Assembly (NCBI RefSeq): GCF_028290625.1
Contig: NZ_JAQGJM010000022.1
Coordinates: 1 to 64,000 of the forward strand
Length of the DNA: 64,000 bases
Direction: 5' to 3'
DNA from: Devosia sp.
GTDB taxonomy: Bacteria; Pseudomonadota; Alphaproteobacteria; Rhizobiales; Devosiaceae
How positions within the stretch are numbered: the stretch's first letter is position 1; the number at the start of each line of letters is the position of its first letter. Both the position numbers and the translations under genes were made by a program. Of this stretch, positions 36,482 to 41,550 are shown in pieces. The notes under the pieces are model-generated. The model saw nothing but the letters and a program-made list of their open reading frames with translations. It made no database searches and was not told the origin of the DNA.

Positions 36482-37504
36482 ATGAGCTCCTTCGACATCG
36501 ACAATCCCGCGCCACGCCGCCACCGTCCCTGGACCGCGGTCGAACGCGCCTTCGCGGCCGTGGGCCTGTCTGGCCGCGCGCTCGTCATTGCCGCCCCCGC
36601 CGCCTGGTTGACGCTGTTGTTCCTGATCCCGCTCGCCGTGGTGTTCGGCATTTCGCTGGCCACCAAGCAGTTCGGCAAGCCACCCTATTCCGACCTGCTG
36701 ACCACCGGGGACGGCACCGTGCAGCTCACTCTGCACCTGTCCAACTATGTCCGCCTGTTCACCGACAGTCTCTATGTCGCGGCCTATTTGAACTCGATCA
36801 AGATCGCCTTCATCTCGACCATTTTCGCGCTGCTGATCGGCTATCCGATGGCCTATTTCATCGCCCGCTCGTCCGATCGCTGGCGCAATATCCTGCTGAT
36901 GCTGGTCATCCTGCCGTTCTGGACCTCGTTCCTGCTGCGCGTCTACGCGCTGACCGGCTTCATGCGCGGCAATGGCGTCATCAACCAGTTCCTGGAATTC
37001 ATCGGCTTCCAGCACGTCATCAATGGCTACAATGCCGTCCTAGGCTGGGCCGGCTGGCAGATGCCGTCGCTGCCTTTCGTGATGATGCAGACCGATTTCG
37101 CCGTCTATGTGGGCATCGTTTACACCTACCTGCCCTTCATGATCCTGCCGCTGTTCACCAATCTGGTGAAGCTGGATGGCGCCCTGCTTGAGGCCTCCGC
37201 CGATCTGGGCGGCAGGCCCATGCGGACCTTCTTTTCCATCACCCTGCCGCTTTCCATGCCCGGCGTCGTCGCCGGTTCCATGCTGGTCTTCATCCCCGCC
37301 ATCGGCGAATTCGTCATTCCGTCGCTGCTCGGCGGGCCCGAAACCCTGATGATCGGTCGCGTGCTCTGGGACGAGTTCTTCACCAATACCAACTGGCCCC
37401 GCGCCGCCGCGGTGGCTATCGCCATGCTGGTCGTGGTCGTGGTGCCCATCATGCTGCTGCAAAAGGCGCAGGACGCCGTGCAAGACACCGCGAGGACCAA
37501 ATAA
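36482..37504 (+). CDS. potH: Polyamine ABC importer, permease
   Basis: A 340-residue inner-membrane permease of the PotB/PotH class with about six membrane segments and an N-terminal cytoplasmic stretch of about 35 residues. Landmarks are LIGYPMAYFIARSSDRWRN, the membrane segment ILLMLVILPFWTSFLLRVYA, and the EAA loop LLEASADLGGRPMRTFFSITLPLS. GAAGGAG precedes the ATG. Its TAA shares one base with the potI ATG. Confidence 0.93.
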   Translation: MSSFDIDNPAPRRHRPWTAVERAFAAVGLSGRALVIAAPAAWLTLLFLIPLAVVFGISLATKQFGKPPYSDLLTTGDGTVQLTLHLSNYVRLFTDSLYVAAYLNSIKIAFISTIFALLIGYPMAYFIARSSDRWRNILLMLVILPFWTSFLLRVYALTGFMRGNGVINQFLEFIGFQHVINGYNAVLGWAGWQMPSLPFVMMQTDFAVYVGIVYTYLPFMILPLFTNLVKLDGALLEASADLGGRPMRTFFSITLPLSMPGVVAGSMLVFIPAIGEFVIPSLLGGPETLMIGRVLWDEFFTNTNWPRAAAVAIAMLVVVVVPIMLLQKAQDAVQDTARTK

Positions 37505-38313
37505 TGCGCCGCGGCTGGTTCCTGCCCACAATGGCGATCCTGGGCTTCGTCTTCCTCTACGCGCCGATCATTTCGCTGGTCGTGTTCTCGTTCAATGAAA
37601 GCAAGCTGGTCACTGTCTGGTCCGGCTTCTCCACCAAATGGTATGGCGAATTGTTCGCCGACCCACAAATGCTCGGCGCCGCCTGGCTCAGCCTGCGCAT
37701 TGCGGCCGTCAGCGCCACCATCGCTTTGGTGCTGGGCACGCTTTGCGCCATATCGCTGGTCCGCTTCCGCCGCTTCCGCGGCCGCACCATCCTGTCGGGC
37801 ATGGTCTCGGCGCCATTGGTCATGCCCGACGTGATCACCGGCCTGTCGCTGCTGCTGCTGTTCGTCGGCATGGAAAGCATTCTGGGCTGGCCCGCCGGCC
37901 GCGGCATGCTGACCATCATCCTCGCCCATTCGACCTTCTGCATGGCCTATGTGTGCGTCGTGGTGCAGTCGCGCCTCGCCGATTTCGACATGAGCCTCGA
38001 GGAAGCCGCCATGGACCTCGGCGCCACCCCGGCCCGCGTCTTCTTCGACATCACCCTGCCCATCATCGCCCCGGCGCTGGTCTCGGGCTGGCTGCTGGGC
38101 TTCACCCTCTCGCTCGACGACCTGGTGATTGCCAGCTTCGTCAGCGGCCCCGGCTCGTCCACCCTGCCCATGGTGATCTTCTCAAAAGTCCGCCTCGGCG
38201 TCTCCCCCGACGTTAATGCGCTCGCCTCCATCATCATCGGCATCGTCGCCCTCGGCGTCTTCGCCGCCACCATCTTCCAGCTCCGCTCCCGCCCCAAAAA
38301 GGCGCGCGCCTGA
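37504..38313 (+). CDS. potI: Polyamine ABC importer, permease
   Basis: A 269-residue permease of the PotC/PotI class. Six membrane segments begin with WFLPTMAILGFVFLYAPIIS; the VVFSFNESKLVTVWSGFSTKWYGELF region is typical of PotC/PotI, and the EAA loop is LEEAAMDLGATPARVFFDITLPI. It is the last gene of the pot operon, coupled to potH by TAATG. The following 150 bases lead into an apparently separate SOS-boxed unit. Confidence 0.93.
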   Translation: MRRGWFLPTMAILGFVFLYAPIISLVVFSFNESKLVTVWSGFSTKWYGELFADPQMLGAAWLSLRIAAVSATIALVLGTLCAISLVRFRRFRGRTILSGMVSAPLVMPDVITGLSLLLLFVGMESILGWPAGRGMLTIILAHSTFCMAYVCVVVQSRLADFDMSLEEAAMDLGATPARVFFDITLPIIAPALVSGWLLGFTLSLDDLVIASFVSGPGSSTLPMVIFSKVRLGVSPDVNALASIIIGIVALGVFAATIFQLRSRPKKARA

Positions 38314-38363: not shown

Positions 38364-38389
38364 GTTCACATTTAGTTCGCTTTTCGTTC
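38364..38389 (+). promoter_or_regulatory. Two overlapping LexA (SOS) boxes, GTTC-N7-GTTC-N7-GTTC
   Basis: GTTC occurs at 38364-38367, 38375-38378 and 38386-38389, each exactly 11 bp apart. The alphaproteobacterial LexA operator is GTTC-N7-GTTC, so three in register form two overlapping operators. A CTATTT -10-like box follows at 38400-38405, so LexA bound here would cover the -35 region. No other gene start lies close downstream except the 24-residue frame at 38468. Confidence 0.65.
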
Positions 38390-38453
38390 ATAAACCGCCC
38401 TATTTACAGGTCGGAAAAACGGGCGCATGCTTTTGTCATGTTCAACCAACGTG

Positions 38454-38466
38454 AAGGAGGTGATCC
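38454..38466 (+). promoter_or_regulatory. Full-length Shine-Dalgarno of the 24-residue frame
   Basis: AAGGAGGTGATCC is complementary over 13 bases to the 3' tail of 16S rRNA; the GGAGG core ends 7 bases before ATG 38468. Such a complete match is far stronger than any other site in the window and argues that the tiny frame is translated. Confidence 0.8.
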
Positions 38467-38467
38467 A

Positions 38468-38542
38468 ATGGCTTATGAGATTACGGCGCTCGAAGAGGGT
38501 CTTGGATATAATGTGTTCGTGTCGGGGGTAAGCCTCGGCTAG
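38468..38542 (+). CDS. 24-residue microprotein behind SOS boxes
   Basis: A 24-residue frame that begins MAYEITALEEGLGYN, ends FVSGVSLG and stops at TAG 38540-38542. It is acidic in the first half and hydrophobic in the second, with no signal peptide and no clear membrane helix. It has a perfect Shine-Dalgarno, tandem LexA-type boxes about 80-100 bp upstream and an intrinsic terminator 56 bp downstream, so it forms a complete short transcription unit of roughly 200 nt. I recognise no family. It could be a DNA-damage-induced peptide, or a dual-function sRNA with a peptide. Nothing ties it to the neighbouring pot, rrf2 or antiporter genes. Confidence 0.6.
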   Translation: MAYEITALEEGLGYNVFVSGVSLG

Positions 38543-38597
38543 AACACACTTCCTTCAGACGAGAAATCGTCAGGCACTTGAGGCCGAATACTCATGG

Positions 38598-38628
38598 AAG
38601 GGCCGCAGCAATGCGGCCCTTTTCTTTT
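38598..38628 (+). terminator. Intrinsic terminator of the microprotein unit
   Basis: AAGGGCCGC-AGCAAT-GCGGCCCTT followed by TTCTTTT. A 9-bp stem with a six-base loop and a U-rich tail on the plus strand only. It ends three bases before the stop of the convergent Rrf2 gene. Confidence 0.88.
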
Positions 38629-38630
38629 GG

Positions 38631-39059
38631 CTAGACGGGAAGGTCTTCCAGACGCAGCGAATCCGCTAGCGTTGTACTGTCGAGCACTGCGCGCGTCGCC
38701 AACGTCACCCGCTCGAACACATGCCGGATTTCGCAGGAGCTTTCCTCCCGGCAATCCTCGCATTTGCGATAGGCGATCTTGGACAGGCAGGGTAGCGGCG
38801 CGATCGGCCCGTCGATCAGCCGCAGCACTTCGCCGAAGCGGATTTCCTCCGGCGCCTTGAGCAATTCATAGCCCCCGGTACGCCCGCGCCGGCTCGCCAC
38901 GAACCCGGCCCGCTTCAGTTCCAACAGAATCTGTTCGAGGAATTTCTTGGGGATCGCCTGCTCGCGCGCAATGTCGCCGATCATCATCGTTTCGCCACGC
39001 TGCGCCCGCGCCAGTGACACTAGCGCGCGCAAAGCATATTTGGCCTTTTGCGAAATCAT
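38631..39059 (-). CDS. Rrf2 family transcriptional regulator with four cysteines
   Basis: 142 residues. The Rrf2 winged helix starts MISQKAKYALRALVSLA, with recognition part AREQAIPKKFLEQILLELKRAGFV and wing RRGRTGGYELLKAP. Cys91, Cys100, Cys103 and Cys109 lie in the loop where IscR, NsrR and RirA bind an Fe-S cluster, so it may sense iron, sulfur or oxidants; the CysR/CymR-type non-cluster regulators are the alternative. It lies 16 bases downstream of the antiporter gene on the same strand and may be cotranscribed with it. Confidence 0.88.
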   Translation of the reverse strand: MISQKAKYALRALVSLARAQRGETMMIGDIAREQAIPKKFLEQILLELKRAGFVASRRGRTGGYELLKAPEEIRFGEVLRLIDGPIAPLPCLSKIAYRKCEDCREESSCEIRHVFERVTLATRAVLDSTTLADSLRLEDLPV

Positions 39060-39075: not shown

Positions 39076-41550
39076 TCAAATCTTGGGTTCAGGCACCACG
39101 GGCGGCACTGCGCGTTCTTCCGGTTGCTGTTCGGCGTCAGGCTCCGTCGGCTCCGGCACAGCCACCGGGCCACCCTCCGACACTTCATCCTCAGCCGCGA
39201 CCTCGTCAGCCGCAGGCTCGGCGGGCGTCGCTTCGTCGTCAGCGACGACCGGCGCCTCCGGCTCGATCACCGGACTACCCTCATAAATTTCGTCTTCCGT
39301 GGCGAGTTCCTCAGGCGTTTCATCGGCCACAGGCGTCGCTTCAACCAAGGCCTCCGGCGTCTCCGCCACGGCCGGGGTTGTCTGCACGCTCTCCAGCGTC
39401 GCCGCGTCGACAACAGCGGGCTCGCCGACAACAACCTCTTCCGGCACGGCCTCGACGGCCTCGACGGCCTCAATCACCGCAACATCCTCGACCGGCGCCA
39501 CGGCCGTCTCGAGAGCCGGCAATTCGATCACGCTCTCGCTGGCGACAATGTCCGCCGCCTCCGCCATGGCCGCAGGCTGCACGACTTGCGGTTCCGCAGC
39601 CACAGCCGGCTCGACCGTCGCCACCAACTCCACGGGGACGGGCGGCTCAGCAACAACCAGCGGCTCTGCCGCCGCCACGATGGCGGCCTTTTCCAGAATG
39701 TTCTCCACCGGCGCCAGCTTGGGTTCAATCGGCGGCACCGGGGCGGTATCGACGATATCCTCAACCCGCTCGCCGCGCAGCCAGGCCAGCATGCCTAGGC
39801 CGATCTCGCGCTCGCCCATGATCACCTGATCGGCCCCGAAATGGCGCAGATGGGTCTCTTCGTCTTCGGAATGCGCCCGCGCCAAAATGCGAATGCCCGG
39901 ATTGATCTTGCGGCCGACCTCGACCACGGTCCCGGCCTCAAAACCGTTGGGAATGGCGATCATCAACACCTTGGCTTGCGCCAGGTTGGCCAGCTTGAGC
40001 ACCTCGGCGCTGGCCGCGTTGCCGCTGACCACTTCGATGCCCTTAGAGCGCGCATAGGCGATGCTGTGATCGGAATCCTCGATCACCACGAGGGACGCAC
40101 CCGCATCCTTGAGCCCCTGCCCGACCACGCGGCCCACCCGGCCAAAACCCACGAGGATCGTATGATCCTTCTGCCGCGTCGGCTGGGCTTCGTCCTCATT
40201 GTCCCCAACCGGAGCCTCTGCGGCAGGCGCTTCGGGCGCAACCGCGCCTTCCACCGAAACGGTCGTCTCGCCCGGCTCGACCCGCACCTCAGGTTCGCCC
40301 CGACGGCTGGCCACCCGCTGCTCGAGCCGCGGCTTGACCAGATCGACCGCCCAGAACACCACGGGATTGAGCACGATGGAGATCAGAGCGCCGGCCAGGA
40401 TCAGGTCCTGCCCTTCCTTGGGCAGGATCGCCAGGGAGACACCCATGCTGGCCAGGATGAACGAGAACTCGCCGATCTGCGCCAGGCTGGCCGAAATCGT
40501 CAGCGCCGTGCCGATCGGCCGGCGGAATAGCAGCACGATAGCAAAGGCCGCCACCGACTTGCCGATGACGATGATGAACACCGTCGCCAGCACCTGCAGC
40601 GGCTGGCTGACCAGGATGGAGGGATCGAACAGCATGCCGATGGACACGAAGAACAGCACCGCGAAAGCGTCGCGCAGCGGCAGGGTTTCCTGCGCGGCGC
40701 GCTGGCTGAGTTCGCTTTCCGCCAGCATCATGCCGGCAAAGAACGCACCCAGTGCCAGCGAAACGCCAAACAGCACCGAGGAGCCCAACGCCACGCCCAG
40801 CGCAATCGCCAGCACCGCCAGACGGAACAATTCGCGTGAGCCAGTATGGGCCGTGGCATGCAGGGCCCAGGGAATTGCCCGCCGCCCGACGATCAGCATG
40901 AAGCCGATAAACGCCGCGACCTTGACCAGGGTCAGCCCCAGCACGCCCCAGATGCCAATTTCCATGCGCAGCATGCGCTCGACGAACGACACGAACGGAT
41001 CGTGCATCACCGTCTCGGGATTACCCGACAGGCTCGCAAAGGCTGGGATCAGCACCAAAGCCAGCACCATGGCCAAATCTTCGACGATCAGCCAGCCGAC
41101 GGCGATGCGCCCCCGTTCGGTCTCGATCAATCGCTTGTCCTGCAAGGCCTTGAGCAGCACCACGGTGGAGGCCACCGACAACGCCAGCCCGAACAGGATG
41201 CCGGCGCCCAGGCCCCAGCCCAGCAGCGTCGCCAGCCCCAGTCCGAGCAGCGTCGCAAAGGCGATCTGCACCAATGCGCCGGGGATAGCCAGCGCCCGCA
41301 CGCTCAACAGGTCCTTGAGCGAAAAATGCAGGCCGACGCCGAACATCAGGAGGATCACGCCCAGTTCGGCCAGTTCGGCGCTCAGCGCCTGATCGGCAAC
41401 GAAGCCCGGCGTATAGGGTCCCGCCAGCATGCCGGCGAACAGATACCCCACCAATGGGGGCATCTTGAACCGATTGGCGATCATCCCGAATATATATGCC
41501 AGCACAAGACCCGCGACGATCATGGTGATCAGGGGGGTTTCATGCTGCAT
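39076..41550 (-). CDS. CPA2-type K+/H+ antiporter with RCK domain and long acidic tail
   Basis: 824 residues. The membrane domain of about 12 segments (1-400) has the CPA2 start PPLVGYLFAGMLAGPYTPGF and LIVEDLAMVLALVLIP. The RCK/TrkA-N domain (about 460-595) has the nucleotide motif ILVGFGRVGRVVGQGL. The last ~225 residues are low-complexity Ala/Val/Glu/Pro, absent from typical KefB/YbaL proteins of 560-620 residues. It would exchange K+ (or Na+) for H+ at the inner membrane, gated by nucleotide or thiol ligands. No KefF/KefG partner is nearby. Confidence 0.9.
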   Translation of the reverse strand: MQHETPLITMIVAGLVLAYIFGMIANRFKMPPLVGYLFAGMLAGPYTPGFVADQALSAELAELGVILLMFGVGLHFSLKDLLSVRALAIPGALVQIAFATLLGLGLATLLGWGLGAGILFGLALSVASTVVLLKALQDKRLIETERGRIAVGWLIVEDLAMVLALVLIPAFASLSGNPETVMHDPFVSFVERMLRMEIGIWGVLGLTLVKVAAFIGFMLIVGRRAIPWALHATAHTGSRELFRLAVLAIALGVALGSSVLFGVSLALGAFFAGMMLAESELSQRAAQETLPLRDAFAVLFFVSIGMLFDPSILVSQPLQVLATVFIIVIGKSVAAFAIVLLFRRPIGTALTISASLAQIGEFSFILASMGVSLAILPKEGQDLILAGALISIVLNPVVFWAVDLVKPRLEQRVASRRGEPEVRVEPGETTVSVEGAVAPEAPAAEAPVGDNEDEAQPTRQKDHTILVGFGRVGRVVGQGLKDAGASLVVIEDSDHSIAYARSKGIEVVSGNAASAEVLKLANLAQAKVLMIAIPNGFEAGTVVEVGRKINPGIRILARAHSEDEETHLRHFGADQVIMGEREIGLGMLAWLRGERVEDIVDTAPVPPIEPKLAPVENILEKAAIVAAAEPLVVAEPPVPVELVATVEPAVAAEPQVVQPAAMAEAADIVASESVIELPALETAVAPVEDVAVIEAVEAVEAVPEEVVVGEPAVVDAATLESVQTTPAVAETPEALVEATPVADETPEELATEDEIYEGSPVIEPEAPVVADDEATPAEPAADEVAAEDEVSEGGPVAVPEPTEPDAEQQPEERAVPPVVPEPKI

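Follow-up and report, generated by a model that had tools for sequence, protein, structure and literature searches.

A conserved Devosia RNA related to CC2171 that may capture ribosomes at a short, translated-looking frame

Between a PotI-like permease gene (37504–38313, plus strand) and a convergent gene for an Rrf2 regulator (38631–39059, minus strand), the 64-kb stretch of Devosia DNA analysed here (the window) holds a short segment in which three GTTC tetramers precede a Shine–Dalgarno sequence, a 24-codon frame and a terminator. A sequence-only reading had taken this segment for a short transcription unit that is induced by DNA damage, encoding a microprotein or acting as a dual-function RNA. 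What does the segment produce, and is damage control one of its properties? Comparison across related genomes points, with a probability that we put at roughly 45%, to a structured small RNA that stands alone, measures about 190 nt, belongs to the CC2171 lineage and would capture ribosomes. The comparative evidence for this reading consists of homology, promoter, 16S complement, frame length and the covariation of a helix, P1.

Genomes of the genus Devosia conserve the unit, which would run from A38438 to about 38628, as a single-copy gene. Loci of this genus are similar to those in records named D. equisanguinis and D. indica. A 301-bp region matched all 36 other genomes of the genus in a first search (39 of 61 genomes overall), and a strict core pattern was present in 64 of 75 genomes of the genus, with one copy per genome. 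Across the order, the pattern AAGGAGGTGATCCARTG occurs in 131 of 397 genomes, as a single copy in each, and its reverse in none of the 397. It is this conservation that sets the unit apart, and not the number of GTTC-N7-GTTC sites, which are no rarer than chance (1.37 expected in the window, with 34 of 100 shuffles reaching 2). Among 64 distinct Devosia sequences, taken from genomes of the window's genus with the window included, at least one of the permease and Rrf2 neighbours was found in 60 and both in 43, counted within fetched flanks of which some span only about 0.5 kb. A role as a transcription attenuator leader was rejected because no co-directional gene follows the terminator, the Rrf2 gene being on the minus strand. 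That Rrf2 regulator carries a CEDCREESSC cluster and reaches none of the NCBIfam equivalog cut-offs shown (CymR, IscR, RirA and NsrR). At 39076–41550, also on the minus strand, lies a gene for a sodium/hydrogen exchanger with a TrkA-N domain, the C-terminal tail of which (around 245 residues) is rich in Glu, Val, Ala and Pro.

The GTTC tetramers stand in an 11-bp register at 38364, 38375 and 38386, as had been noted from the sequence, and form two overlapping GTTC-N7-GTTC sites, the sole two in the window: site 1 at 38364–38378 and site 2 at 38375–38389, both LexA-like and on the plus strand. As a LexA reference, 20 site regions were fetched, the neighbouring translations were read, and ten putative LexA-type sites were used for a matrix (lexA with two, imuA, dnaE2, ssb, uvrA, radA, dnaE and two before pyrB; the gene names are our reading of the proteins). 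Leave-one-out scores of these ten sites range from 13.2 to 22.8, an interval that includes both site 1 (13.4) and site 2 (17.9), which rank 25th and 14th among the 100 listed of the 125 GTTC-N7-GTTC sites in the genome; the pattern read backwards occurs 90 times. Site 2, the better of the two, has a counterpart at the same place in the nearest relative (L002, score 15.7). A matrix score of at least 12 is reached in 4 of the 64 Devosia upstream regions, against 0.77 in shuffles, and two of these four are the window and its nearest relative. The claim of a LexA operator divides: one box scores like the genome's LexA-type sites, but the operator is not kept in related genomes. Of the 64 Devosia sequences, 2 have the triad (the window and that same relative) and 4 more a single GTTC pair (L017, L040, L282 and L285). 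Among 177 further loci, mostly from outside Devosia, the GTTC pattern occurs in only three, namely L146, which is the window itself, L202 from D. equisanguinis and L232, which is Devosia-type by sequence. Because triad and pattern are restricted to the window and a few Devosia-type loci, SOS control does not stand as a property of the unit; in the window's species it is plausible, as a local addition and not a family trait. Elsewhere in the same genome, a further three-GTTC tandem in the 11-bp register, laid out as in the window, lies upstream of an apparent aspartate carbamoyltransferase gene (L296, contig 35, 147826–147851).

A conserved promoter lies downstream of the triad, with 13 bp between the end of the boxes at 38389 and the start of the −35 element. 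This element (TTTACA, 38403–38408, plus strand) reads TGGACA, TAGACA or TTTACA in 61 of the 64 Devosia sequences. A CAnnnT −10 element (CATGCT, 38426–38431, plus strand) was found in all 64 by a five-position search, at a spacing of 17 nt from the −35 in 52. ATGTTCAA is likewise present in all 64, 6–7 nt past CAnnnT in 58, and characterizes a conserved 5′ leader (ATGTTCAAC..., 38438–38453, plus strand); we infer that transcription starts at A38438. The hexamer CTATTT, earlier proposed as the −10 element, is present at 38400–38405, but the conserved −35/CAnnnT layout of the 64 Devosia sequences lies 3′ of it and rules it out. Also rejected was a frame from the ATG at 38438, which is broken by stop codons or a one-base shift in several relatives. 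Upstream of some Devosia RNAs, a GTGA-N7-GTGA direct repeat lies near the −35 element (for example L016, L021, L024 and L025); GTGA repeats with an 11-bp period occur in 10 of the 64 Devosia upstream regions and form a candidate operator. A binding motif for ChvI is given in a published report (PMC9731502).

The leader is followed by an extended Shine–Dalgarno sequence (AAGGAGGTGATCCA, 38454–38467, plus strand), all 14 nt of which are complementary to the alphaproteobacterial 16S rRNA 3′ tail (tail sequence verified on plasmid records), which confirms and lengthens the 13-base match reported from the sequence. Its 13-nt core has a single match in the 4.96-Mb genome, at this locus, and the 16S tail itself was not found in those 4.96 Mb. 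Extended Shine–Dalgarno motifs are also a subject of work on Staphylococcus (PMC13009471). The 24-codon frame, too, is present as described: it opens at ATG 38468, closes with TAG (38468–38542 with the stop codon, plus strand), encodes MAYEITALEEGLGYNVFVSGVSLG and is conserved in length among relatives. In the 30 loci found with the family model, the window included, the 16S-complementary run measures 11–18 nt (15–17 in 20 loci), the start codon is ATG in 15, GTG in 14 and TTG in 1, and codon 2 is serine in 28; the model contains both Shine–Dalgarno sequence and start, which biases the loci it finds towards both. The TG of the start codon is invariant in all 30 and lies outside the 16S complement, supporting a real start. 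The longest invariant block of a 38-sequence alignment is the 16S complement.

Frame length provides a further comparison. The frame is 18–35 codons long in 30 of the 30 model-found loci, against 23% in shuffles. Across four sets of 29, 26, 44 and 104 loci with repeats removed, frame 0 measures 18–27 codons in 90, 96, 100 and 86%, compared with 0–21% for the other two frames; for a band of 14–35 codons the figures are 95–100% and 0–42%, except for one wrong frame in Devosia at 73%. Such conservation relative to the other frames argues that the frame is selected, and start codon, frame length and other-frame control together give it the look of a translated frame. On this comparative evidence, the dual-function RNA, one of the options in the sequence-only reading, gains support for its translated frame; what survives of the proposed short transcription unit is a conserved unit with a translated-looking frame, without SOS control as its general property.

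Constraint on the amino acids is confined to part of this picture. Over 32 independent Devosia pairs, 54 changes are synonymous against 32.4 expected, an excess carried by codons 2–14 (38 against 20.3); from codon 15 onwards no constraint is seen (16 against 12.6, p 0.15). Indels among the 64 Devosia sequences keep the frame. The 76 VSHC-type peptides gave 35 synonymous changes against 34.1 expected in 28 independent pairs, a test on diverged pairs that weak constraint could escape, and their changes by codon position number 97, 117 and 88. Counts from non-independent pairs are 215 against 216.5 for 19 Rhodobacteraceae-like loci and 8 against 8.6 for ten Bradyrhizobium-type loci. In these ten loci, codons 5–14 are identical at the nucleotide level, which points to constraint on the RNA. 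The same ten loci, from Bradyrhizobium and its kin (L167, L172, L176, L177, L188, L197, L199, L213, L229 and L230), carry a 14-codon version of the frame. The non-Devosia groups encode unrelated peptides, and the peptide of the window has no match in Pfam or NCBIfam. A conserved signalling microprotein, as previously envisaged, is backed inside Devosia but not in the VSHC-type or Rhodobacteraceae-like loci, and the even scatter of substitutions over codon positions that would speak against it is seen outside Devosia and not inside. Because constraint on the amino acids is measurable in Devosia and in none of the other groups tested, the conserved output looks like ribosome binding and translation rather than the peptide; since the amino acids are constrained in Devosia, a role for the peptide there is possible. 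Two peptide classes were considered and rejected: a type I toxin mRNA, because MAYEITALEEGLGYNVFVSGVSLG has by inspection no hydrophobic membrane stretch, and a PqqA-like RiPP precursor, suggested by an ExxxY motif seen by eye, because the neighbouring frames include no evident pqq gene and the motif is absent from the other groups.

The RNA, unlike the peptide, has a catalogued relative. A cmscan match to Rfam family RF01867 (CC2171, a Caulobacter small RNA) at 38444–38620 on the plus strand covers positions 1–159 of 159 with 38 bits and is the sole match in the genome at E ≤ 0.001 (E 3.5e-6 over the whole genome). Four other Devosia loci also miss the gathering cut-off of 75 bits, at 30.9–43.8 bits. 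All 14 same-genus or same-order loci tested match the family, 4 of them above the cut-off (79.5–95.5 bits), as do 39 of 190 genomes of the class (34 of 168 genera; the cut-off is exceeded in 7 genomes) in a genome search whose filters lose some weak matches; of 14 control genomes, only Caulobacter vibrioides has a match. R1, a model built from 16 non-Devosia sequences, has as its top match in the genome a full-length one at 38441–38631 (plus strand, 40.4 bits, genome-wide E 6.9e-9); the next match (E 2.0e-4) spans positions 33–181 and is without the 5′ part, and the next full-length match has an E value of 1.09. The 32 other loci put to R1 are all recovered at E ≤ 3.7e-6, with L147, L167 and L213 matching over a short stretch.

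These matches indicate that the unit is a distant homologue of RF01867, a family found in many alphaproteobacteria; by that homology it is a distant member, and at 38 bits, under the Rfam cut-off, not a listed one. A 20-base pattern was found in at least 119 stretches of named genomes, and among the 80 titles of matches listed, 75 are alphaproteobacterial (including Bradyrhizobium, Methylobacterium, Bosea, Rhodobacteraceae, Azospirillum and Brevundimonas), 3 are gammaproteobacterial and 2 say only "Proteobacteria". A few of the hits, namely L190, L218, L253 and the Azospirillum loci with 57–59 codons, may be non-members. The Rfam 15 paper reports one added covarying pair for RF01867 (PMC11701678), and a predicted RNA matching the family appears in a Mesorhizobium survey (PMC5596092). 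In the portions of the literature searched, neither a frame nor a function is described for CC2171.

The 3′ end of the unit is formed by the good intrinsic terminator that had been recognized from the sequence, AAGGGCCGCA-GCAA-TGCGGCCCTT with a T-rich run (38598–38628, plus strand; stem 38598–38607/38612–38621). A second helix, P1, pairs the first codons with the strand that precedes the terminator; in the window it has five pairs, between ATGAG (38475–38479) and CTCAT (38591–38595), both on the plus strand. The Rfam consensus draws P1 as CAUUGUC/GACAAUG, and its arms change together between groups, from CATTGTC/GACAATG to ATGAGATT/AATCTCAT, GTGAGATT/AATCTCAC and CATGAAT/ATTCATG. RNAalifold on the 38-sequence alignment returned only the terminator and a 3-bp hairpin. 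MAFFT sets the arms of P1 one column out of register between groups, and P1 was for this reason tested by permutation. The helix averages 4.77 over the 73 distinct 5′ arms, compared with 3.66 (sd 0.11) when arms are swapped between groups, and helices of at least 6 occur for 17 of the 73 arms against 3.3 expected and a maximum of 11 in 2000 permutations; the test drew on 149 of 259 loci (41 repeats were removed and 69 loci dropped for having no automatic terminator or being short), some with wrongly picked terminators. A first, wider test gave observed and null values of 0.51 and 0.23 at threshold 14 and 0.34 and 0.12 at threshold 16, with no separation at 18 (0.06 versus 0.05) or 20 (0.02 versus 0.02).

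The start region also has a second potential partner. Just past the stop codon, an internal anti-Shine–Dalgarno segment (CACTTCCTTCA, 38547–38557, plus strand) is complementary to 38452–38462 over 11 bp with one G–U pair. In 31 of 37 Devosia loci a complement lies in almost the same position, right behind the stop codon. Measured against shuffles, the internal complement reaches p ≤ 0.05 for 67% of 12 Rhodobacteraceae-like loci, 41% of 44 loci of the VSHC type and 34% of 32 others, and for 12% of 24 MSS-type (3 loci) and 8% of 37 Devosia loci (3 loci). For each of four RNAs, the fold is more stable than that of shuffles by about 5 sd. P1 is part of the best fold in two of them; the best folds of the window and L262 instead pair the Shine–Dalgarno sequence with the internal complement. 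The two pairings cross by position and would thus either coexist as a pseudoknot or exclude one another as alternative states.

The ribosome-capturing RNA that we favour would work as follows. Its 5′ end would pair with the single-stranded 3′ tail of 16S rRNA, and the ribosome would then initiate on the short frame and cross it, with length mattering more than amino acids. P1 and, in many members, the internal anti-Shine–Dalgarno copy both bear on the start region; a ribosome sitting there would open P1 and thereby release the internal strand. In the window's species, damage control may come on top of this, through a LexA site that precedes the promoter. Several results count against such a ribosome-gated RNA: the window's score below the Rfam cut-off, the constrained amino acids of Devosia and its one wrong frame at 73% in the wider band, the weakness of the internal anti-Shine–Dalgarno in Devosia and MSS-type loci, the absence of P1 from the best folds of the window and one more of the four RNAs, the wider P1 test that failed to separate at thresholds 18 and 20, and the bias of model-found loci towards a Shine–Dalgarno sequence and start. 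A broader proposal, tentative and on balance somewhat doubtful, is that CC2171-type RNAs are widespread ribosome sensors, in which a 5′ end complementary to the entire single-stranded 16S tail captures 30S subunits, a frame under selection for length and not for amino acids times the ribosome's stay, and a closed pseudoknot of P1 and the 16S-tail mimic exchanges with an open form that exposes the mimic to other mRNAs, such that the supply of free ribosomes would be read out as anti-Shine–Dalgarno activity.

Other products could underlie the same conserved features. If the unit is a small mRNA, its extra-strong site would serve to make a 22–24-residue Devosia peptide that binds a target, with the RNA fold only tuning output. 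The synonymous excess in codons 2–14 and the frame-keeping indels of Devosia are what this account predicts, but it fits poorly with the unconstrained remainder of the frame, the unrelated peptides and undetectable constraint of the other groups, the nucleotide identity of the Bradyrhizobium-type codons and the lack of a Pfam or NCBIfam match, and we consider it unlikely. The LexA-controlled, damage-induced microprotein gene of the sequence-only reading is in our view improbable: box 2 resembles the genome's LexA-type sites and persists in the nearest relative, and high-scoring upstream regions exceed the shuffled number, yet the triad is restricted to two Devosia sequences, the further loci add only two Devosia-type cases to the window's own copy, and the boxes end short of the conserved −35.

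There are two further accounts. The accessible 5′ end might act as a decoy, soaking up the 16S tails of 30S subunits or small RNAs with anti-Shine–Dalgarno seeds. That the longest invariant block is the 16S complement suits a decoy, and there is a precedent in Caulobacter, where CrfA is described as soaking up SisA-D, one RNA masking the anti-Shine–Dalgarno motif of four small RNAs (PMC12559287); a pure decoy would, however, need neither the conserved start codon nor the conserved frame length, and a decoy for 30S subunits would require great abundance, leaving this explanation a doubtful one. In a classical trans-acting small RNA, the C/U-rich internal segment would repress other mRNAs and the frame would be incidental. 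The excess of internal complements in the Rhodobacteraceae-like, VSHC-type and other loci is consistent with this, but their scarcity in MSS-type and Devosia loci, a place that differs between groups and the frame-length conservation that is left unexplained make it quite unlikely.

With the ribosome-capturing reading, a catalogued small RNA family that has no assigned function gains an anatomy that can be tested: nearly the whole 16S tail has its complement in the RNA, the frame is selected for length with no detectable selection on its amino acids outside Devosia, and a ribosome must open a covarying helix. If ribosome gating is true, these RNAs would be simple sensors of ribosome supply, in a class of bacteria that includes plant symbionts and model organisms. 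The locus also illustrates how an RNA of this kind may have acquired an SOS operator in a single lineage.

How does the unit compare with known systems? Small proteins induced by SOS, SidA and TisB among them, are membrane peptides. The unit shares their small size and, if its boxes work, their link to LexA, but its peptide has on inspection no hydrophobic membrane stretch. BjrC68 (RF02353) gives a partial match of 24.5 bits against a cut-off of 39, which covers only 38570–38629 and looks like terminator resemblance. CrfA, SisA-D and MmgR (alpha-R8) are alphaproteobacterial RNAs that are said to act through an anti-Shine–Dalgarno motif and its masking; the likeness is one of description, and CrfA differs in pairing through G49–C63 and in that the account consulted mentions no frame (PMC12559287). 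Sinorhizobium small RNAs with frames have been studied by ribosome profiling, and rnTrpL/peTrpL of that genus, also in Rhizobiales, is a short RNA with a frame, in its case of 14 codons (PMC10117765). rnTrpL/peTrpL is an attenuator of trpE, whereas the gene next to the Devosia unit is convergent. For RF01867 itself, which Rfam describes only as a small RNA and which the window matches at about half the cut-off score, the consensus, with a GUG start, is like the Devosia unit in its 16S complement, its long-range helix and its terminator.
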